A stretch of 64,000 bases of DNA, taken from Streptomyces sclerotialus (lineage in GTDB: Bacteria; Actinomycetota; Actinomycetes; Streptomycetales; Streptomycetaceae). The DNA is taken from assembly GCF_040907265.1 (NCBI RefSeq), contig NZ_JBFOHP010000002.1:2628501-2692500 (forward strand), read 5' to 3'. Shown one piece after another: positions 18,463 to 54,422 of this stretch; the stretch's first letter is position 1; each line of letters starts with the position of its first letter. Under the pieces are notes generated by a model that saw nothing but the letters and a program-made list of their open reading frames with translations, made no database searches and was not told the DNA's origin. Position numbers and translations under genes: made by a program.

Positions 18463-19167
18463 TCACATGTCCGTGAGCCGCAGCCCCGCGTGCACCTTGT
18501 AGCGGCGGTTGGTGGAGATCAGGTTCGCGACCAGGGACTCCACCTGGTGGGCGTTGCGCAGCCGGCCCGCGAAGACGCCGCGCATGCCGGGGATGCGGGC
18601 GGCCAGCGCCTGGACCACGTCCGTGTCGGCCCGCTTCTCGCCGAGCACCATCACGTCCGTGTCGATCTCCGCGACCTCCGGGTCCTGGAGGAGCACGGCG
18701 GAGAGGTGGTGGAAGGCGGCGGTCACCCGGGAGTCCGGGAGGAGCGCCGCGGCCTGTTCGGCGGCGCTGCCCTCCGCCGGCTTCAGCGCGTAGGCGCCCT
18801 TCTTGTCGAAGCCGAGCGGGTTCACGCAGTCCACGACGAGCTTGCCGGCCAGCTCCTCCCGGAGCGACTCCAGCGTCTTGGCGTGGCCGTCCCACGGTAC
18901 GGCCACGATCACCACGTCGGAGCGGCGCGCGCACTCCGCGTTGTCCGCGCCTTCCACCCCGTGGCCGAGCTCGTCGGCCGCCGACTGTGCCCGTTCGGCC
19001 GCACGCGAGCCGATGATCACCTTCTGGCCCGCCCTGGCGAACCGGTACGCCAGCCCCCGGCCCTGGTCACCGGTGCCGCCGAGTACGCCGACGACGAGCC
19101 CGGACACGTCCGGGAGGTCCCAGGGGTCCTTGGCCGGTGCCTTCTTCTGCTCTCCATCAGTAGTCAT
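18463..19167 (-). CDS. npdG: F420-dependent NADP+ reductase (NADPH:F420 oxidoreductase)
   Basis: 234 residues from ATG 19167. Rossmann domain at the N terminus with GVLGGTGDQGRGLAYRFA and IIGSRAAERA (binding of the NADP phosphate), then VVIVAVPWDGH and VVDCVNPLGF, the conserved hallmarks of F420:NADP reductases. The C-terminal helical part contains GVFAGRLRNAHQVESL. It moves hydride between the deazaflavin cofactor F420 and NADP in the cytoplasm, a typical actinobacterial and archaeal activity. A single gene. Confidence 0.92.
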   Translation of the reverse strand: MTTDGEQKKAPAKDPWDLPDVSGLVVGVLGGTGDQGRGLAYRFARAGQKVIIGSRAAERAQSAADELGHGVEGADNAECARRSDVVIVAVPWDGHAKTLESLREELAGKLVVDCVNPLGFDKKGAYALKPAEGSAAEQAAALLPDSRVTAAFHHLSAVLLQDPEVAEIDTDVMVLGEKRADTDVVQALAARIPGMRGVFAGRLRNAHQVESLVANLISTNRRYKVHAGLRLTDM

Positions 19168-19251
19168 GCCAGCGATACTGGCACGCGGTGCCGTACCGCA
19201 CACGGGCGGCAGGCCGCGCCACCGCTCACGGGCAGCTGCGCCGCCCGCCGG

Positions 19252-20097
19252 TCATGCCTTGACGCTCCCCTCCGTCAGCCCCGTACGCCAGTACCGCTGC
19301 AGCACCGTCATCAGGATCATCAGCGGCAGGACGGACAGGAACGCGCCGCCGACGGTGTACTGGTACAGCTCGGGCTGCCGGTCGGCGTAGCCGGTCCAGG
19401 AGGTCAGGCCCAGCTGGATCGGGTACAGGCCGGAGTCGGAGAGCATGACCAGCGGCAGGAAGTAGTTGTTCCAGATGTGCACGAACTGGAAGAGGAAGAC
19501 GGTGACGAGGGCCGGGGTCATCAGCCGCAGGCCCAGCCCCGCGAAGATCCGCCCCTCCCCCGCGCCGTCGATCCGGGCCGCCTCCAGCAGCGAGTCGGGA
19601 ACGGCGGCGGCCGCGTAGATCCGGCAGAGGTAGACGCCGAACGGGCTGACCACGCTGGGGATCAGCACGGACCAGTAGGTGTTGGACATCCCGAAGCCGC
19701 TGAAGAGGAAGTACAGCGGCAGGGCGAGCGCCGTGCCGGGGATCAGCACGCCGGCCAGGATGACGTTGAAGATCGCTTCCCGGCCCGGGAAGGGGAACTT
19801 CGCGAGCGCGTAGCCGGCCGCGGCGGACAGCAGGGTCGCGGCGAGCGCGCCGACGCCCGCGTACAGCAGGGAGTTGGCGAACCAGCGGACGTAGATGCCG
19901 CGGTCGTAGGTGAGGACGTCGGTCAGGTACTCGACGGGGCGGGGGTTCGCGAACCAGAAGCCGAAGCTGCCGAAGAGGTCGCCGCTGCTCTTCGTGGCCG
20001 AGACCACCAGCCAGTACACCGGTACGAGGAAGTAGACCGCGGCGACGGTCAGCAGGGCGAAGGTGATGATGCGGTAGCGGAGCGCCGAGGGGGTCAC
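19252..20097 (-). CDS. CUT1 sugar ABC transporter permease (MalG type), sialic-acid operon
   Basis: 281 residues. The start is the GTG at 20097, which overlaps the upstream permease stop as GTGA. Six helices. The MalG-type inner-membrane signature is EAARIDGAGEGRIFAGLGLRL, the EAA loop contacting the ATPase. Last gene of the unit sialidase - binding protein - permease - permease. No ATPase gene follows, so the transporter probably uses a shared multiple-sugar ATPase such as MsiK encoded elsewhere, as is usual for Streptomyces CUT1 systems. Substrate, from context only: a sialic acid or sialylated oligosaccharide. Confidence 0.92.
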   Translation of the reverse strand: MTPSALRYRIITFALLTVAAVYFLVPVYWLVVSATKSSGDLFGSFGFWFANPRPVEYLTDVLTYDRGIYVRWFANSLLYAGVGALAATLLSAAAGYALAKFPFPGREAIFNVILAGVLIPGTALALPLYFLFSGFGMSNTYWSVLIPSVVSPFGVYLCRIYAAAAVPDSLLEAARIDGAGEGRIFAGLGLRLMTPALVTVFLFQFVHIWNNYFLPLVMLSDSGLYPIQLGLTSWTGYADRQPELYQYTVGGAFLSVLPLMILMTVLQRYWRTGLTEGSVKA

Positions 20098-21011
20098 CGG
20101 CCGTCTCCCTTCCCCCGCTGCCCGACCAGCCGCAGGAAGCCGAACGACAGGACGCAGGCGACCAGCGCGAGCAGGACCGCCTCGGCGGCCGCGAGGTGCT
20201 GGTTGTTGCCGACGAACGCCTCGCTGTAGGCGTGCAGGTTGGGCGTGTAGCCGGAGTCGATGGAGGAGGCCAGCGGCCGCAGCACCATCGGCTCGGCGAA
20301 CAGCTGGAGCGTGCCGATGATGGAGAAGACGCAGGTCAGGACGAGGGCCGGGCGGATGAGCGGGATCTTGATGTGGAGGGCCACCTGGCGGGCGTTCGCG
20401 CCGTCGATGCGCGCCGCCTCGTACAGCTCCTGGGGGACGGCCTTGAGCTGGGCGATCAGGACGAGCATGTTGTAGCCGGTGAACTGCCAGGTGACGATGT
20501 TGGCGATGGACCACAGGACGGCGTCCCGGGACAGGAAGTCCACCTGCCAGCCGACCGCGTCCGCCATCTTCACCAGCGGGCTGATGCCGGGGACGTAGAG
20601 GAAGCCCCAGAGGATCGAGGCGATCACGCCGGGGACGCCGTACGGCAGGAAGAACGCGCTGCGGAAGAACGTCACCCAGCGGGCGCTCGCGCTCTCCAGG
20701 AGCAGCGCGAGGACGGTCGCCAGGATGATCATGAGCGGGATCTGGACGGCGCCGAACAACAGCACCCGGCCGAAACCGGAGAGGAAGCGGTCGTCGGCGA
20801 GCGCCTGTGCGTAGTTGGCGAATCCGGCGAAGACCTCGCGCTCCGCGCCGCCGAGGCCGAGCGGCCCGGTGCGTTCGGTCTTGTGCAGGCTCTGCCACAC
20901 CGCGTACACGATGGGCGTGATGAAGCAGAGCAGGAACAGGGCGAGGAAGGGGAGGAGGAAGCCCGCCGCCGCGCGGGCGTTGCGGGCTTCCGTGCGGGTC
21001 GGCCGTCTCAC
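20094..21011 (-). CDS. CUT1 sugar ABC transporter permease (MalF type), sialic-acid operon
   Basis: 305 residues from GTG 21011, overlapping the stop of the binding-protein gene (GTGA). Six transmembrane helices after a short Arg-rich cytoplasmic lead. The EAA loop is ELYEAARIDGANARQVALHI. It forms the heterodimeric channel with the MalG-type partner. Tight overlaps on both sides indicate co-translation of binding protein and both permeases. Confidence 0.92.
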   Translation of the reverse strand: MRRPTRTEARNARAAAGFLLPFLALFLLCFITPIVYAVWQSLHKTERTGPLGLGGAEREVFAGFANYAQALADDRFLSGFGRVLLFGAVQIPLMIILATVLALLLESASARWVTFFRSAFFLPYGVPGVIASILWGFLYVPGISPLVKMADAVGWQVDFLSRDAVLWSIANIVTWQFTGYNMLVLIAQLKAVPQELYEAARIDGANARQVALHIKIPLIRPALVLTCVFSIIGTLQLFAEPMVLRPLASSIDSGYTPNLHAYSEAFVGNNQHLAAAEAVLLALVACVLSFGFLRLVGQRGKGDGR

Positions 21012-22360
21012 CCGCCGCTCTCCACCTTCAGGCCCTTGCCCTTGAGGTCGCTCACGGTCTGCGCCTGGACCTTCTTCAGCACCGAGCGGAAGGAGTCGCC
21101 GCTGCTCAGCGCCTCGGTGAAGGCGTCGCCCAGGCGCTGGTAGAGGGTGTCGACGCCAGGGCCCCACTGCCAGCTGGTGTCCACGTGGTCACCGGCCTCC
21201 CGGAAGACCTGGCTGTACGCCTGGCCGCCGAAGAAGTCCTTGTGGACGTCCAGGTCGCTGGTCTTGTAGCCGGTCTTCGCGCTGGGGAACCCGTAACCGC
21301 CCTCGATGAGCAGCTTGATCGCTTCGGGGTCGGTGTTGAGCCAGACGGCGAAGTCCAGCGCGTCCTTGGGGTACGCGGCCCCGGCGAACACCGCGGTGGT
21401 CGAGCCGCCCCAGTTGGCCTGCGCGTTCGCGCCCTTGGTCCACTGCGGCAGGGGGACGGCACGCCATGTGCCCTTGGTGTCGGGCGCGTTGCCGACGAGC
21501 AGTGCGTCGCCCCAGCTGGCGCCGAGCCAGGCGGGGATGGCGCCGGTCTGGATGTCCTTGTACCAGGCGTTCTGGCGGTCCGGGATGGTCTTGACGAGCT
21601 TCTGCTTGACCAGTGCTTCCCAGTAGTCGGCGACCTTGCGGGTGGGTTCGTCGTCGATGGCGACGGTCCAGTTGTCGCCCTCGGCGGCGTACCACTTGGC
21701 GCCGGCCTGCCAGGCGTAGCCGGCGAAGCGGTTGCCGTTGGTGGGCGCGAAGGTCTCGATCCAGGCACCCTTCTTGCGGATCTTCCTGGCCGCGGCCTCG
21801 TACTCGTCCCAGGTGGCGGGCGGCTCGATGTCCCACTTGTCGAAGAGGTCCTGGCGGATGAACAGGCCCATGGGGCCGGAGGCCTGCGGGATGGCGTAGA
21901 CGCCCTTGCCGAAGACGGACTGCTGCCACTGCCAGCCCACGAACCGGCTCTTGTACCGCTCGCCGCCGACGGTCGTCAGGTCCAGCAGCCCGTTGTCGAG
22001 CAGGAAGCCGGGCACGACGGGGAACTCGATCTGGCCGAGGTCCGGCGGGTTGCCCGCCTTGATGGCGGCGTGCATCTTGGCGTACTGCGCGCCGTTGACC
22101 GCCGACACCTTCTCGACCTTGACCTGCACCTCGGGGTTCTTGCTGTTCCACAGATCGACGGGCTTGTCGATGCCGGGCACCCAGGACCAGAAGGTCAGCG
22201 TGATCTTCTGCCCCTTCTTGCGTTCCTTGGGCGCGGCCTTCTCGTCCTCGGCACCGCCCCCGCACCCGGCCAGCGCGAAGCCGGCGGCCACGGCAGCGGC
22301 CCCGCCCAGCACGGATCTGCGGCGCGCGCCGCCCGGAGGGATCGTGTCGTACGTCCTCAT
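21008..22360 (-). CDS. Extracellular solute-binding lipoprotein of the CUT1 transporter
   Basis: 450 residues, ATG overlapping the sialidase stop (ATGA). The signal sequence has a twin-arginine-like RRRSVLGGAAAVAAGFALAGC ending in a lipobox Cys, so it is a membrane-anchored lipoprotein, possibly Tat-exported. The mature part is a MalE-type (family 1) binding protein with ITLTFWSWVPG at its start and the CLUSTER 1 features of oligosaccharide binders. It delivers ligand to the two permeases downstream. The sialidase partner upstream suggests a sialoside ligand. Confidence 0.92.
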   Translation of the reverse strand: MRTYDTIPPGGARRRSVLGGAAAVAAGFALAGCGGGAEDEKAAPKERKKGQKITLTFWSWVPGIDKPVDLWNSKNPEVQVKVEKVSAVNGAQYAKMHAAIKAGNPPDLGQIEFPVVPGFLLDNGLLDLTTVGGERYKSRFVGWQWQQSVFGKGVYAIPQASGPMGLFIRQDLFDKWDIEPPATWDEYEAAARKIRKKGAWIETFAPTNGNRFAGYAWQAGAKWYAAEGDNWTVAIDDEPTRKVADYWEALVKQKLVKTIPDRQNAWYKDIQTGAIPAWLGASWGDALLVGNAPDTKGTWRAVPLPQWTKGANAQANWGGSTTAVFAGAAYPKDALDFAVWLNTDPEAIKLLIEGGYGFPSAKTGYKTSDLDVHKDFFGGQAYSQVFREAGDHVDTSWQWGPGVDTLYQRLGDAFTEALSSGDSFRSVLKKVQAQTVSDLKGKGLKVESGG

Positions 22361-23460
22361 GCCAGCTCCTCCACGGGGATGCGGCGGAAGGTGATCGTCG
22401 AGTAGGCGCTGAAGTCGCCGGTCTCGTAGAGCAGTCCGACGGTGCCGGGGTCGGCCCGTACCAGGTCGGAGTAGGCGGCCGGGAGGCCGCTGACGGTATG
22501 GGCGTCGTACCAGGTCAGGCCGTGGTCACGGCTGGCGCGTACGGTCATCAGGGCGCGGGATTCCCGGTCGGCGGGGGCCGAGAAGAGCAGTACGTCCGGA
22601 GTACCGAGGTGGAGCACGCTGCCCTGGACGACGGGCGCCGCGAGGCCCGCCTGCGACCGGAAGGGCTTCTCCAGACGTTCGCCGCCGTCGGCGGAGTAGG
22701 CGTCGACGCGGGTGCCGGGCGCGCCGGAGTCGTTGCGGGCGTTGAAGTAGAGGCGTCCCCCGGGGAGTTCGGCTGCGGTGGTCTCGTTGGTGTTGATGTA
22801 GCCGTTGGGGTTGGAGTCGGTGTAGCCGATCCGCCAGGTGTCACCGGAGTCGTCGCTGAGCAGGCCGTGGCCGCCGTCGTAGCGGCCTTCGGCGCCGGTG
22901 TCGCCGGGCACGGTGGGGGCGATGGAGTGGTTGCCGGGGACGACCAGCCGGCCGGCGTGCGGGCCGTCGCGGAGCTGGAGTGCGTGCCCGGGGGTGGTGG
23001 CGTACCAGCGCCAGTCGGACCGCTTCGTCTGCGAGGTGATCTCGCGGGGTTCGCTCCAGGTGAGGCCGTCGTCGTCGCTGTGCTGGATCCAGACGCGGCG
23101 GCCGTCCGCGTCGGACACCTCGCCCCGGCGGATGGCGCTCTCGGTGGCGCTGCCCGCGTTGCGTACGTGGACCAGCACGGTGCGGCCGGCGTGCGGGCCG
23201 GTGTGCAGTACGACGGGGGCCGGGTTGCCCGCGGTGCCGGTGCCGTTGCGGTCGACGACGGTCAGCGGACCCCAGGTGCGGCCGCCGTCGGTGGAGCGTT
23301 TGAGGACCAGGTCGATGTCGCCGGTGTCGGACGCCGAGGCGACCCGGCCCTCGGCGAAGGCCAGCAGGGTGCCGGCCCGGGTGACGACCACGGCCGGGAT
23401 GCGGTAACTGGCGTAGCCACCGGTCCCGGCGCGGAAGGGTTGCGAAGTCTCGTACGCCAC
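22357..23460 (-). CDS. Exo-alpha-sialidase (GH33-like), without signal peptide
   Basis: 367 residues from GTG 23460, preceded by AGGGG. Six-bladed propeller sialidase. The FRIP-equivalent YRIP carries the first triad Arg (R20). Four Asp-box sequences are STDGGRTW (56-63), SDDDGLTW (128-135), SDDSGDTW (202-209) and SRDHGLTW (310-317). Candidate further active-site residues are Asp45 (acid/base), Glu231, Arg242, Arg302 and Tyr330. There is no signal peptide or anchor, so the enzyme should act in the cytoplasm, releasing sialic acid from imported sialosides. It opens the five-gene order sialidase-SBP-permease-permease with an operator and promoter in front. Confidence 0.9.
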   Translation of the reverse strand: MAYETSQPFRAGTGGYASYRIPAVVVTRAGTLLAFAEGRVASASDTGDIDLVLKRSTDGGRTWGPLTVVDRNGTGTAGNPAPVVLHTGPHAGRTVLVHVRNAGSATESAIRRGEVSDADGRRVWIQHSDDDGLTWSEPREITSQTKRSDWRWYATTPGHALQLRDGPHAGRLVVPGNHSIAPTVPGDTGAEGRYDGGHGLLSDDSGDTWRIGYTDSNPNGYINTNETTAAELPGGRLYFNARNDSGAPGTRVDAYSADGGERLEKPFRSQAGLAAPVVQGSVLHLGTPDVLLFSAPADRESRALMTVRASRDHGLTWYDAHTVSGLPAAYSDLVRADPGTVGLLYETGDFSAYSTITFRRIPVEELA

Positions 23461-23477
23461 GGGCAGCCCCTAACGAC

Positions 23478-23500
23478 CAGACGTAGGACGTCCCTTGTCC
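23478..23500. promoter_or_regulatory. GntR-family operator 2, upstream of the sialidase operon
   Basis: Core GGACGT-CCC-TTGTCC at 23486-23500, preceded by CAGACGTA. It is nearly the same as the operator at 24502-24524: 20 of 23 positions agree. It lies 18 bases upstream of the sialidase start and just downstream of the promoter at 23508-23536, where bound protein would block initiation. Confidence 0.75.
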
Positions 23501-23507
23501 TGCGGCG

Positions 23508-23536
23508 ACCTTAGGGAGCGCCCAACGGGGCGTCAA
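23508..23536 (-). promoter_or_regulatory. Promoter of the sialidase/ABC operon
   Basis: On the minus strand TTGACG (23531-23536), a 17-base spacer, and TAAGGT (23508-23513): a good sigma-70-like (HrdB) promoter reading toward the sialidase gene. The repressor site at 23478-23500 covers the expected start of transcription. Confidence 0.65.
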
Positions 23537-23666
23537 GGCACCCGACATGCCCCGTGTCGCCCGCCTCGCGCGGATGCCACAGCCAGGGGAACTACGGGTG
23601 AACCTCGGTTGTACGCAAGGAGACCGGACGTGGCGGACTTCCTGGAGCCTTCCGCCCCCTGGCCCG

Positions 23667-24377
23667 TTACACGGCTCCGATGCGGGACTGCGCGGCGTCC
23701 TTCAGCCGCTCCCGGATGCCGTCGAAGTGCCGGTGCATCGCCTCGACCGCGCGGTCGCCGTCGCCCGTCTCCAGCGCGGTGACGATCTCCTGGTGCTGAC
23801 GCCAGGTCACCTCCGGGTCCTGACTGCTGTCGTCCAGGTCCTTGCGGACCCGGCGCAGCGCGTCCCAGAAGGCGTCCAGCACCTCGCTGAGCAGGTGGTT
23901 GCCGAGCGAGCGGTACAGCGCGAGGTGGAAGGCGCGGTCGGTGGCGCTCTCCACCCGGCCGGCCGCCGCCTCCTTCTCCATCCGGTCGACCAGGCCGCGC
24001 AGTACGGCCAGGTCCTCGGCGGGCAGACCGCGCGCGACCGACGCGACGAGCCCGGCCTCCAGCGCCTCGCGGACCTCCATCAGCTCGTAGAGGCTGGCCT
24101 CGCCCTGGTGGTGGCGGACCGCGGCCCGGAAGGCGATGCCCTCCACGAGCGGGTCGAGGGTGAGCGTCCCGACGTACGTGCCGAAGCCGTGCCGGATCTC
24201 GACGATGCGCATGGCCTGGAGCGCCTTGAGGGCCTCGCGGACGGAGTTGCGGCTGACGTCGAGCAGCTCGACGAGCTCGGCCTCGGTCGGCAGCGGGTCG
24301 CCGGGCACCAGCTTCCGCCGCAGGATGAGCCGTTTGATCTGCGCCTGGACGTCCTCGGACATCGTGCCGCGCGCCAT
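23667..24377 (-). CDS. GntR/FCD-family regulator of the sialic-acid genes (NanR-like)
   Basis: 236 residues from ATG 24377, with GGAGAGG upstream. N-terminal winged helix (PGDPLPTEAELVELLDVSRNSVREALKALQAMRIVEIRHGFGTYV) and an all-helical FCD ligand domain (YELMEVREALEAGLV ... AFHLALYRSLGNHLL ... HQEIVTALETGD), whose Asp/His residues usually bind a metal and the effector. The same subfamily includes NanR, the sialic-acid repressor of enterobacteria. It lies between the two divergent sialic units, and two matching operators flank it. The effector (sialic acid or a derivative) is inferred. Confidence 0.87.
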   Translation of the reverse strand: MARGTMSEDVQAQIKRLILRRKLVPGDPLPTEAELVELLDVSRNSVREALKALQAMRIVEIRHGFGTYVGTLTLDPLVEGIAFRAAVRHHQGEASLYELMEVREALEAGLVASVARGLPAEDLAVLRGLVDRMEKEAAAGRVESATDRAFHLALYRSLGNHLLSEVLDAFWDALRRVRKDLDDSSQDPEVTWRQHQEIVTALETGDGDRAVEAMHRHFDGIRERLKDAAQSRIGAV

Positions 24378-24466
24378 GTGTCTGCCTCTCCGTCTCCTCG
24401 CGGGACCCGCGTCCAGGCCCCGCTGACCGGACCGGCGGCGGGGCGGATGACGTGCCCCGCGACCTC

Positions 24467-24497
24467 TTGACCGATCCCTTCGCTGCGGGTCTATTGT
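24467..24497 (+). promoter_or_regulatory. Promoter of the lyase-nanT unit
   Basis: TTGACC (24467-24472), 19 bases, TATTGT (24492-24497), followed four bases later by the GntR-type operator. The spacing is longer than ideal, so the exact hexamers are less certain than those of the sialidase promoter. Confidence 0.5.
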
Positions 24498-24501
24498 GAC
24501 C

Positions 24502-24524
24502 CAGACATAGGACATCCCATGTCC
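24502..24524. promoter_or_regulatory. GntR-family operator 1, upstream of the lyase-nanT unit
   Basis: Perfect inverted repeat GGACAT-CCC-ATGTCC (24510-24524) preceded by CAGACATA. It sits in the shared region between the divergent regulator gene (start 24377) and the lyase gene (start 24627), so it can control both. The second copy precedes the sialidase operon. Confidence 0.78.
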
Positions 24525-24626
24525 GACGTCCGATCACCTGCCGTTCCCCGTGTTCGCCGGCCGTTCCCCCGTTCTTCACCGGACCCGTGGTCGGCGGCCC
24601 CGCACCATCACCGCCTGGAGCCCGTC

Positions 24627-25585
24627 ATGGCACTGCCCACCCCGCTGACCGGTGTCGTACCGCCGGTCTGCACCCCCTGGACCCGCACGGCGAGGTCGAC
24701 ACCGGCTCCCTCGGGCGGCTCGTGGAGCACCTGGTCGGCGGCGGGGTGCACGGCCTCTTCGCGCTCGGCTCGACCAGCGAGGTCGCCTACCTCACCGACG
24801 CGCAGCGGGCCACGGCCCTCGAAGCCGTGATCAAGGCGGCGGACGGCCGGGTGCCGGTGCTGGCCGGGGTCATCGACACCACCACGGCCCGGGTCGCCGA
24901 GCACGCCCGCACCGCCGCCGAGCTGGGCGCCGACGCGCTGGTGGCCACCGCGCCCTTCTACACCCGTACGCACCCCAAGGAGATCGCCGGGCACTTCCGC
25001 ACGCTCCGGGCCACCGTGGACCTGCCGCTCTTCGCGTACGACATCCCGGTGTCGGTGCACAGCAAGCTCTCCCCCGCGCTGGTGCGGGAGCTGGCCGAGG
25101 ACGGCACGCTCGCCGGGCTCAAGGACAGCAGCGGCGACGAGGGCGGGCTGCGCCGGCTCCTCGTCGAACTGGGCGGCAGGGCCGGCCGCCGCACCGGCCC
25201 GGTGCCCGATTTCGCGGTCCTCACCGGCTCCGAACTGACCGTGGACGCCGCGCTGCTCGCCGGCGCGGACGGCGTGGTGCCGGGCATCGGCAACGTCGAC
25301 CCGGCCGCCTACGTCCGGCTGTACGACGCCTGCCGCGCGGGCGACTGGGCGGCGGCAGCGGCCGAGCAGGAGCGGCTGGTCGCGCTCTTCGGCATGGTCG
25401 ACGCCGGCCCCGAGGCGGAGATGGGCCGCAGCTCCTCGGCGCTGGGCTCCTTCAAGGCGGCGCTGCACCTGCTCGGCGTCATCGACCACCCGGCCACCGC
25501 GGCGCCGCAGCTCCCGCTGGGCCAGGAGTCCGTCGCCGTGGTCGCCCGCCGGCTGACCGCCGCGGGCCTGGAGCCGGTCCGATGA
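24627..25585 (+). pseudogene. N-acetylneuraminate lyase / DapA-family aldolase, split by a one-base frameshift
   Basis: DHDPS/NAL family TIM-barrel aldolase, expected to cleave N-acetylneuraminate to pyruvate and N-acetylmannosamine. The N terminus (MALPTPLTGVVPPVCTPW) is in the frame of ATG 24627. Everything from DPHGEVDTGSLGRL onward is in the frame ending at 25585. The switch falls at the C5 run 24673-24677; one extra C restores the family consensus PPV-TP-L-D-GEVD. The downstream frame keeps the catalytic features: GSTSEV, Tyr in YDIPVSVH and the Schiff-base Lys in GLKDSSGDE. A true null mutation, an assembly homopolymer error or slippage are all possible. Its stop overlaps nanT (ATGA). 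The exact substrate within the family is inferred from nanT and the sialidase. Confidence 0.8.
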
Positions 25586-27075
25586 CGGGGCCCGCGCGCC
25601 CCGCGCGCAAGGCGGCGCTGCCCTGGTACCGAGAGGTGACCCCGGCCCGCTGGAAGGCGTTCTTCGCCGCCTGGATCGGCTACGTCCTCGACGGCTTCGA
25701 CTTCGTACTGATCACCCTGGTGCTGACCGAGATCAGCGCCGAGTTCGAGCTCAGCACGGTGCAGGGCGCGAGCCTGATCTCCGGCGCCTTCATCACCCGC
25801 TGGCTCGGCGGCGCGGTCCTCGGCGCGCTCGGCGACCGCTTCGGCCGCAAGGCGTCGATGGTGGCGAGCATCCTGCTCTACTCCCTCGGCACCTTCGCGT
25901 GCGGTTTCGCCTGGGACTTCACCAGCCTGTTCGTGGCCCGGCTGCTGATCGGCATGGGCATGGCCGGCGAGTACAGCGCCAGCGCCACGTACGTGCTGGA
26001 GAGCTGGCCGTCCCGGGTACGCGGCCGGGCCAGCGGCTTCCTGATCTCCGGCTTCTCCCTGGGCTCGGTGCTGGCCGCCGAGTGCTACAAGTGGGTCGTG
26101 CCGTCCCTCGGCTGGCGCTGGATGTTCTACATCGGCCTGGCCCCGATCCTGATCGCGCTGTGGGTACGGCGGGCCCTGCCGGAGGCCGATGAGTGGAGCG
26201 CGACGGTCTCCGGACGGGAGACGAAGCCCAATCCCTTCCGGCCGCTGTTCGGCACACCGGTCCGCGCCACGGTCAACACCGTACTGACGGTCGTCGCGAC
26301 GCTCGCCCTCTTCGGCGTCTTCACCCCGGTGGGCGAGGGCGCGGTCCCGGTGCTCTCCGTCCTCGCGGCGCTCGCCCTGGGCGGGCTCGCGGTCCAGCTG
26401 GGCGGCCGCCGCGGCTGGCTGCTGTACCTCGCCCTGATCGTCACCGTCTTCGTCGCCTTCCTCTACACCTGGCCCATCCAGGCGCTGCTGCCGACGTACC
26501 TGAAGACCGAGCTGCACTACTCCCCCGGCGAGGTCACGAACGTGCTGTTCTTCGCCGGGTTCGGCACCATGGCGGGCTGCTGGCTGGCGGGGTTCGTCGG
26601 CGACTGGATCGGGGCGCAGAAGGCGTACGCGTTCACCCTGCTCGCCTCGCTCGTCTTCGTCTTCCCGGTCTTCGCCGCCCGCGACAGCCTGCTGGTCCTC
26701 GGCGTCCTGCTCTTCGTCCTCCAGGCGCTCAGCTTCGGCATCTCCGGCCTGCTGCCCCGGTACATCGGCGGGCACTTCCCGACCGAGAGCCGGGCCGCGA
26801 GCCTGGGCTTCACGTACAACGTGGGGGCGCTGGGCGGCGCGGTGGCGCCGGTCCTGGGCGCGAGCCTGGCCGAGGGCAGGTCGCTGGGCGGCTCGCTGGC
26901 CCTGCTCACCTTCGCCGGCACGGTCCTGGTGGTACTGCTCGTCGGCTTCGACGTACCGGCCCGGCTGAACCGCCTGCTCGACCCGGACGCCCCGCGCGAC
27001 CACCTGGCCGCCGAGGAGTCGGCGGTGGAGGGCGCGGGGCCGACGGGGCCGGCGCGCGTGCAGCAGGAGGCGTAG
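25582..27075 (+). CDS. nanT: Sialic acid:proton symporter NanT
   Basis: 497 residues from ATG 25582, overlapping the lyase stop as ATGA. It follows E. coli NanT closely as I remember that protein: an LPWYR motif before TM1, AAWIGYVLDGFDFVLITLVL in TM1, IGMGMAGEYSASATYV, RASGFLISGFS, the central FLYTWPIQALLPTYLKTEL and GFTYNVGALGGAVAPVLGA. About 14 helices including the extra central pair typical of the sialate:H+ symporter family. It imports free sialic acid across the membrane. Second gene of the operator-controlled lyase-nanT unit. Confidence 0.93.
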   Translation: MTGPARPARKAALPWYREVTPARWKAFFAAWIGYVLDGFDFVLITLVLTEISAEFELSTVQGASLISGAFITRWLGGAVLGALGDRFGRKASMVASILLYSLGTFACGFAWDFTSLFVARLLIGMGMAGEYSASATYVLESWPSRVRGRASGFLISGFSLGSVLAAECYKWVVPSLGWRWMFYIGLAPILIALWVRRALPEADEWSATVSGRETKPNPFRPLFGTPVRATVNTVLTVVATLALFGVFTPVGEGAVPVLSVLAALALGGLAVQLGGRRGWLLYLALIVTVFVAFLYTWPIQALLPTYLKTELHYSPGEVTNVLFFAGFGTMAGCWLAGFVGDWIGAQKAYAFTLLASLVFVFPVFAARDSLLVLGVLLFVLQALSFGISGLLPRYIGGHFPTESRAASLGFTYNVGALGGAVAPVLGASLAEGRSLGGSLALLTFAGTVLVVLLVGFDVPARLNRLLDPDAPRDHLAAEESAVEGAGPTGPARVQQEA

Positions 27076-54010: not shown

Positions 54011-54422
54011 GGCGGACGAGTCGGCCTGTACGCCGGGTTCTGTCTCCCGGGGCCCTCGCGGGCCTCGGGGAGGCGGCCATCCATCTAGGGCTGCCGTTGC
54101 CGGCAGCCTCGTGCGGTCCACCCGCGGACTCGGGCGGGCAGCCCTCGATCATCCGCGCAGGGCCGTCGTGCGACGGCCCCTCTTGACCTTGCTCCAGGTG
54201 GGGTTTACCTAGCCCTCCGAGTCACCTCGGAGGCTGGTGGTCTCTTACACCACCGTTTCACCCTTACCGGAGCCTCGCGGCCCCGGCGGTCTGCTTTCTG
54301 TGGCACTGTCCCGCGGGTCACCCCGGGTGGGCGTTACCCACCACCCTGCCCTGTGGAGCCCGGACGTTCCTCGGGGAGGTCCGAAGACCCCCACGCGACC
54401 GCCCGGCCGGCTCGTCCGCCGT
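54011..54422 (-). ncRNA. rnpB: RNase P RNA (bacterial class A)
   Basis: The minus strand has the conserved core of the ribozyme in order. GAGGAACGTCCGGGCTCCAC and CAGGGCAGGGTGGTGGGTAA lie near the 5' end. Then CAGTGCCACAGAAAGC, GTAAGGGTGAAACGGTGGTG and AGGTAAACCCCACCTGGAG follow. CTAGATGGATGG and GAGACAGAACCCGGCGTACA lie near the 3' end. Helix P1 is formed by GGCGGACGAG at 54411-54420 and its complement at 54011-54020. About 410 nt, typical for Streptomyces. It processes the 5' ends of tRNAs. The ends are set by P1 and may be off by a few bases. Confidence 0.95.

Follow-up and report, generated by a model that had tools for sequence, protein, structure and literature searches.

A sialic-acid-type regulon without linked nanK and nanE in Streptomyces sclerotialus, and Kdn as its possible ancestral substrate

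Why would a soil Streptomyces keep a sialidase, an ABC importer, a GntR/FCD regulator, a lyase and a NanT symporter side by side, and which sialic acid would these proteins handle? The question is raised by positions 19,252 to 27,075 of a 64,000-nucleotide stretch of Streptomyces sclerotialus DNA (assembly GCF_040907265.1, contig NZ_JBFOHP010000002.1, positions 2,628,501 to 2,692,500; hereafter the window), which an earlier note, made from the sequence alone, described as a complete-looking sialic-acid regulon of a soil organism, with sialic-acid use known mainly from host-associated bacteria. The genes are present as described, but sialic-acid clusters have already been published for 8.37% of Streptomyces species, all but one free-living (PMC8754123). 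Sialic-acid catabolism in free-living Streptomyces is thus known. The explanation that we prefer, with a rough probability of 0.48, is a repressor-controlled two-operon regulon for import and cleavage, with ketodeoxynonulosonic acid (Kdn) as ancestral substrate and N-acetylneuraminic acid (Neu5Ac) added in the clade of the window.

The genes are organized in two operons with the regulator gene, read leftward, between them. Operon 1 runs leftward and encodes two CUT1-type permeases, a solute-binding protein and the sialidase, while operon 2 runs rightward and consists of the lyase-NanT pair (Table 1). Within both operons, neighboring genes share 4-7 bases where the stop codon of one overlaps the start codon of the next. 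The gene order, strands, coordinates, families and overlaps of the earlier note were all confirmed by reading the open reading frames (ORFs) of the window and by Pfam searches. The combination of an SBP_bac_1 protein with two BPD_transp_1 permeases identifies a CUT1 carbohydrate importer; there is no ATPase gene in its operon, and no search for an ATPase in trans was made.

Each operon is preceded by a copy of a 22-bp operator-like sequence. The search pattern was written from these two copies and their exact match is by construction; two matches at three or fewer mismatches were reached in none of 100 shuffles of the window, and one copy used as query at the same threshold retrieves only these two sites in the whole 8.28-Mb genome. 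A looser 21-base pattern (two or fewer mismatches) adds one weaker site outside the window (C2:2574857-2574877). A related operator-like sequence also precedes the lyase of the canonical nan cluster. The candidate operator would tie both operons into one regulon, in which the GntR/FCD protein would act as repressor. This regulator scores 128.4 bits with the NCBIfam NanR model (NF003011), below the cut-off of 260; NanR is the best among the NCBIfam families listed.

A sialic-acid-type regulon is well supported by the comparison of its proteins. NanT passes the cut-off of NF003024 and misses that of TIGR00891 (408.7 vs 552.9 bits). The lyase misses the curated NanA cut-offs (TIGR00683, 80.3 vs 382 bits; NF003164, 90.4 vs 281 bits). 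With the lyases of two canonical nanA-nanK-nanE-nanT clusters (L017 and L087; L and G labels denote our loci and genomes) it shares 85% and 75% identity, which argues for the same chemistry. Its best solved relative by sequence is 5c54 (298.5 bits; next other protein 127.9), named DHDPS/NAL in PDB and presumably the N-acetylneuraminate lyase (NAL) of Corynebacterium glutamicum. The sialidase aligns with Streptococcus pneumoniae sialidase A at the YRIP motif, the Asp boxes, the Arg triad, the Glu and the Tyr, as in GH33-type exo-sialidases, and retains the catalytic residues. It matches the solved sialidase 1eur, that of Micromonospora viridifaciens, over residues 12-355. Its ORF has no start codon earlier than the GTG before an in-frame stop, and the YRIP motif follows about 20 residues in; as there is no signal peptide either, the enzyme should be cytoplasmic. 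Sequence similarity alone does not discriminate between Kdn and Neu5Ac as its preferred substrate.

Other sialidase-like genes occur as well. A second sialidase (L145, G000:C2:6720221, where G000 is the genome of the window) and its relatives, 41-45% identical to that of the window, were found in 12 of 12 genomes; the three copies read (L145, L141, L132) are about 640 aa long with a signal-peptide-like start. A further BNR_2 protein (L122, G000:C2:8076284) scores higher with this family than any other protein of the genome (225.9 bits) and is encoded between dehydrogenase-like and aldolase-like genes, as judged by eye.

The regulon is not complete in the sense of the earlier note. Neither nanK nor nanE lies in the cluster. 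The genome has a single NanE match, 1.86 Mb away (C2:795310-795888), which apparently shares an operon with a ROK kinase gene (nanK) behind a UTRA-type GntR gene. The search elsewhere in the genome that the earlier note had proposed thus yields both genes, at C2 ~793-796 kb and behind a different regulator; nanA, nanK and nanE are all present, though spread far beyond the 10 ORFs of the canonical cluster rule. Scans of the locus and of the genome detected no operator copy at nanK-nanE, and the idea that these genes share the operator was rejected. A route to N-acetylglucosamine (GlcNAc)-6-phosphate thus exists, but outside this regulon. The genes for nanE, nanK and the UTRA-type regulator adjoin each other in the genome of the window and in four sister species (5/5), and G276 has the same UTRA-nanK-nanE genes (79-82% identical) away from its nanR/nanA-nanT. 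In the genome of the window the three genes occupy L091:7375-9901, with two similar palindromes (ATTGG..GGTACCAATC, by eye) upstream of the UTRA regulator gene.

Most of the sampled Streptomyces genomes with this sialidase have no nanE at all. Of 392 Streptomyces genomes, at least 118 encode a window-type sialidase (at least 64% identity), a lower bound counted among the matches listed, with five candidates scored per genome; 111 of these 118 are nanE-less. The seven with nanE, three of which are the clade of the window as sampled, compare with 48 of 274 genomes without this sialidase (55 nanE genomes in total; 56 passed the cut-off and G228, with a 41-residue match, was dropped). Among genomes with a lyase match at E 1e-100 or better, 92 of 142 are nanE-less. 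All 13 nanE-less genomes with a lyase at least 77% identical have it at the sialidase locus (12 fetched; G366 corresponds to the contig of L065). In genomes outside the clade of the window that have the lyase at this locus and were chosen regardless of nanE, nanE is found in 0 of 10 (seven genomes plus four with an intact sialidase nearby, one shared). Seven further such genomes, 17 distinct ones in total, were found via the absence of nanE and are excluded as evidence on it. A bypass of the Bacteroidetes type by GlcNAc 2-epimerase was dropped, as none of 18 genomes has a match over the cut-off (one weak match below it in G016).

Comparison of loci shows what is old and what is variable in this arrangement. 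A gene for an F420-dependent NADP oxidoreductase-like protein lies within about 5 kb of the sialidase gene in 34 of 34 fetched loci, and the sialidase gene is ancient in Streptomyces and has a constant location. Three forms of the locus were found: the sialidase lacks the importer (20 loci fetched), is accompanied by the CUT1 importer (14 loci), or is joined by importer, regulator and lyase as in the window. We dropped the idea that the sialidase is tied to nan genes, since neither this importer nor the regulator or lyase accompanies the sialidase and its F420 neighbor in 20 of the 34 loci (one of them, G385, has a distant CUT1 importer, 33-47% identical, nearby). An operator copy with no or one mismatch precedes the sialidase in 14 of 14 genomes with sialidase and importer, and a copy with three or fewer mismatches in only one (G315) of the 20 without this importer (Fisher p about 1e-8, subject to both sets having been picked from the list of sialidases and not at random). 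The 14 are ranks 4-19 of that list less G167, which was not fetched, and G140, which was fetched and has no importer.

A second locus in each of the 14 genomes encodes a lyase with 64-68% identity to that of the window, followed by NanT, and nanE is present in none of these genomes. This unlinked pair is preceded by an operator copy with three or fewer mismatches in 13 of 14 genomes (four mismatches in G377), compared with 0 of 12 other lyase loci. The looser scan (two or fewer mismatches) marks just the two loci in G086, G075, G182 and G048, and its matches in G377 and G053 are confined to the sialidase locus; the same scan gives ten matches in S. chattanoogensis (G011), where two places were inspected, and single matches in sialidase-only genomes, five of which adjoin a gene about 50% identical to NanR. 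The operators at 14/14 sialidases and 13/14 lyase-NanT pairs, in genomes without nanE, point to a conserved regulon of importer, predicted cytosolic sialidase, lyase and NanT that does without NanE and NanK.

The earlier note regarded an ABC system and NanT in one operator-controlled set as unusual. In the window the operons of both are preceded by an operator copy, and the pairing is best explained, from the loci compared, as a merger of two formerly unlinked operons that already shared an operator type. All parts likewise lie at the sialidase locus in four sister species (the seven proteins 89-97% identical). S. endophytica and S. chattanoogensis retain NanT beside an operator copy at the second place, where the lyase is gone or a remnant; both have a lyase gene at the sialidase locus, accompanied by the regulator in S. 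endophytica but not in S. chattanoogensis. The lyase of the window is closer to those of canonical clusters (75-85%) than to those of the unlinked pairs (64-68%), and the same holds for NanT (76-79% vs 67-73%), so the merger probably drew on genes of a canonical-type cluster. A second, intact lyase gene lies elsewhere in the genome (66% identical), without a NanT neighbor and without an operator (six mismatches).

A different arrangement was seen in L210, L211, L212, L284, L287, L290, L291 and L293, where a 56-64% identical lyase adjoins a 53-56% identical sialidase. The importer of these loci is of the oligopeptide type (SBP_bac_5, an assignment that Pfam confirmed for L210 only), and some also have a regulator about 50% identical to NanR; nanE is located elsewhere in G201 (L212) and absent from the other genomes of this type.

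Purifying selection acts on the regulon in nanE-less genomes: for its genes, the median ratios of nonsynonymous to synonymous substitution rates (dN/dS) are 0.20-0.42. Since most of the sampled Streptomyces genomes with this regulon contain no NanE, Neu5Ac is doubtful as its main substrate. A regulon kept without NanE and NanK must yield a lyase product that is usable without them, and Kdn, whose cleavage by the lyase yields pyruvate and mannose, fits. According to published reports, a galactose-Kdn polymer, teichulosonic acid, is present in Streptomyces walls (PMC11481543), NanT and NanA of Escherichia coli transport and catabolize KDN (PMC7535918), and nontypeable Haemophilus influenzae takes up and degrades Kdn via its Neu5Ac machinery (PMC7845648). 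We found no description of a Kdn breakdown regulon of Streptomyces in the open-licence literature on Kdn with Streptomyces, sialidase or teichulosonic acid, and the words Kdn and teichulosonic are absent from the main text of PMC8754123.

We therefore propose the following organization, in which linkage, gene content, operator copies, the lack of nanE and purifying selection come from computation, and import ahead of cleavage, repression and the substrate are inferred. The GntR/FCD repressor would control the two operons via one operator type. The importer of operon 1 would bring in oligosaccharides tipped with sialic acid, to be trimmed inside the cell by the cytosolic exo-sialidase, and NanT would import free sialic acid; the lyase would cleave the sialic acid into pyruvate and a sugar of the mannose type. 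Kdn from the teichulosonic acid of Streptomyces walls, giving mannose, would be the ancestral substrate and most likely the main one; we give Kdn in this role slightly less than even odds. In the clade of the window the two operons would have been joined at one locus, and Neu5Ac use via the remote nanK-nanE, which would take the N-acetylmannosamine (ManNAc), is possible in addition. More tentative, with the odds leaning against it, is a dedicated repressor-controlled Kdn salvage that would recycle the teichulosonic acid of the cell itself or of its neighbors without NanE and NanK, on top of which the clade of the window added Neu5Ac catabolism. If Kdn is indeed the substrate, the regulon would serve to degrade one of the main wall polymers of Streptomyces and would explain sialidases and sialic-acid transporters in soil actinomycetes without animal hosts.

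Several observations weigh against Kdn as the substrate or against a functional regulon. NAL enzymes and NanT generally accept Neu5Ac, and among NCBIfam models the lyase scores highest with dapA (119.7 bits, short of the cut-off) and lower with those for NanA. The top match of the solute-binding protein among sequences of solved structures is 2z8d, a protein that binds the mucin/milk disaccharides galacto-N-biose/lacto-N-biose. NeuB is present in 18 of 18 genomes tested, adjoining a CTP_transf_3/HAD (cytidylyltransferase/HAD) gene in the genome of the window; it does not discriminate and was dropped for this purpose. The two-locus genomes contain no close NanR, the best match in the six searched being a 59-61% identical paralogue, which is a candidate regulator there; its copies from G000, G086 and G075 share the recognition-helix stretch VSRNSVREALKALQAM of the repressor of the window in an alignment. 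The nanK-nanE genes, kept with the UTRA-type gene throughout the clade of the window, favor a role for Neu5Ac in that clade. Of the 17 nanE-less genomes that have the lyase at the sialidase locus, five encode a shortened sialidase and six lack an open sialidase frame (11 in total), and dN/dS of the lyase is 0.29-0.30 in nanE-less genomes vs 0.19 in 14 canonical loci (0.14-0.17 for the F420 neighbor); with this weaker selection and sialidase loss, decay is possible. In addition, the lyase frame is broken in this assembly.

The paralogue of NanR adjoins cslA- and glxA-like genes in G000 and G086. Its copies with the same recognition-helix stretch are found in L270 (7332-8012; G000:C2 ~3.225 Mb), L271 and L273, and in G000 a gene for a lytic polysaccharide monooxygenase also lies beside it.

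The most probable alternative is an ordinary Neu5Ac regulon in two pieces: the genes of the window would release and split Neu5Ac, the remote nanK-nanE would finish its degradation, and the nanE-less genomes would be relics or excrete ManNAc. Its strength lies in the nanK-nanE genes of the five genomes of the clade, in a lyase and NanT nearer to canonical clusters than to unlinked pairs, in G276, where both gene sets are likewise apart, and in the sialidase decay of the 11 genomes above. We consider it less probable than the Kdn reading, since no operator precedes nanK-nanE, all 14 two-locus genomes retain importer, sialidase, lyase and NanT without nanE and with operators at 14 and 13 of the respective loci, and dN/dS in nanE-less genomes is well below 1.

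A decaying locus, with the pathway being lost in many lineages after loss of nanK-nanE, would make the lyase frame break one more step. The conserved ATG of the lyase at position 24627 is out of frame with the gene body, and the frame that it opens runs for only about 67 codons; in this assembly some 17 conserved residues at the start are thus shifted against the body, and the listed frame (24587-25585) has no conserved start. The stretch is open in 79 of 80 fetched relatives, the 80th (L072) giving no match to the search pattern, and the break was seen only in the window. Sialidase remnants and missing sialidase frames in nanE-less relatives, together with the somewhat relaxed selection, agree with decay, but the break lies in a C run of a single assembly and may be an assembly error as well as a real break. 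The body of the lyase gene stays open, with 92-94% identity to that of four sister species, all other genes of the locus are open, and nanK-nanE is still present in this genome; we regard general decay as improbable. Short sialidase remnants of 94-175 aa were read in L055, L063, L066, L196 and L201, all with retained importer genes; the gene has thus been shortened repeatedly among nanE-less relatives.

A regulon for 2,7-anhydro-Neu5Ac is very improbable: the importer is of the SBP_bac_1 family, termed ST7 for this compound (PMC8754123), but the intracellular sialidase would have no clear role, and no GFO/IDH/MocA-type protein was found among the nine window proteins scanned, a scan that did not extend to the rest of the genome or to the second operator locus. 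NanOx, a protein of the GFO/IDH/MocA type, and an intramolecular trans-sialidase mark such ST7/SAT2 systems.

The features of the locus are listed in Table 1; the F420 gene lies outside the pathway.

Table 1. Features of the sialic-acid-type locus and one RNA gene elsewhere in the window, with window positions and supporting matches.
Feature	Position	Strand	Evidence
F420-dependent NADP oxidoreductase-like gene, marks the sialidase locus in Streptomyces	18463..19203	-	PF03807
CUT1 importer permease, MalG/UgpE-like	19252..20100	-	PF00528, 62 bits
CUT1 importer permease, MalF/UgpA-like, overlapping the neighboring gene	20094..21014	-	PF00528, 42.5 bits
Importer solute-binding lipoprotein, SBP_bac_1, LAGC lipobox read by eye	21008..22360	-	PF01547, 102.9 bits
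Exo-sialidase without signal peptide, GTG start	22357..23460	-	PF13088, 99.5 bits
22-bp operator-like copy upstream of the sialidase-importer operon	23479..23500	+	pattern search
GntR/FCD regulator, NanR by context	23667..24377	-	PF00392 + PF07729
Promoter-like TTGACC-19-TATTGT, 5' of the lyase operon, read by eye	24467..24497	+	largely conserved in a 7-sequence alignment
22-bp operator-like copy upstream of the lyase-NanT operon	24503..24524	+	pattern search, alignment
NAL-type lyase (DHDPS/NAL family), listed frame	24587..25585	+	PF00701, 149 bits
NanT, sialate:H+ symport family MFS transporter	25582..27075	+	NF003024, 655.6 bits vs cut-off 604
RNase P RNA, class A	54013..54414	-	281.4 bits

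The proposed regulon resembles known systems in part. The nanATEK operon of E. coli likewise places a NanA-type lyase together with NanT under the control of NanR, a GntR/FCD repressor, but it includes nanE and nanK and is not known to contain a sialidase or ABC importer. Bifidobacteria, which use sialylated oligosaccharides by importing them first, share the ABC importer and the intracellular exo-sialidase with the window; they are of another genus, their importer has other relatives, and they have the follow-up genes for ManNAc. Fungal Kdnases and the M. viridifaciens sialidase, which is said to cleave Kdn glycosides too (PMC11727334, PMC5778107), appeared as relatives of the window sialidase in the PDB search, the fungal enzymes being annotated as extracellular. 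The canonical nan cluster of Streptomyces and other actinobacteria differs from the window in that the latter has no nanK and nanE in the cluster, an SBP_bac_1 importer rather than the usual SBP_bac_5 and a sialidase without signal peptide. The genome would accordingly be negative by the rule of PMC8754123, under which nanA, nanK and nanE have to lie within 10 ORFs, and counting only such side-by-side genes misses split and NanE-less systems. Both nevertheless share the same families of lyase, NanT and FCD regulator and a related operator-like sequence before the lyase.

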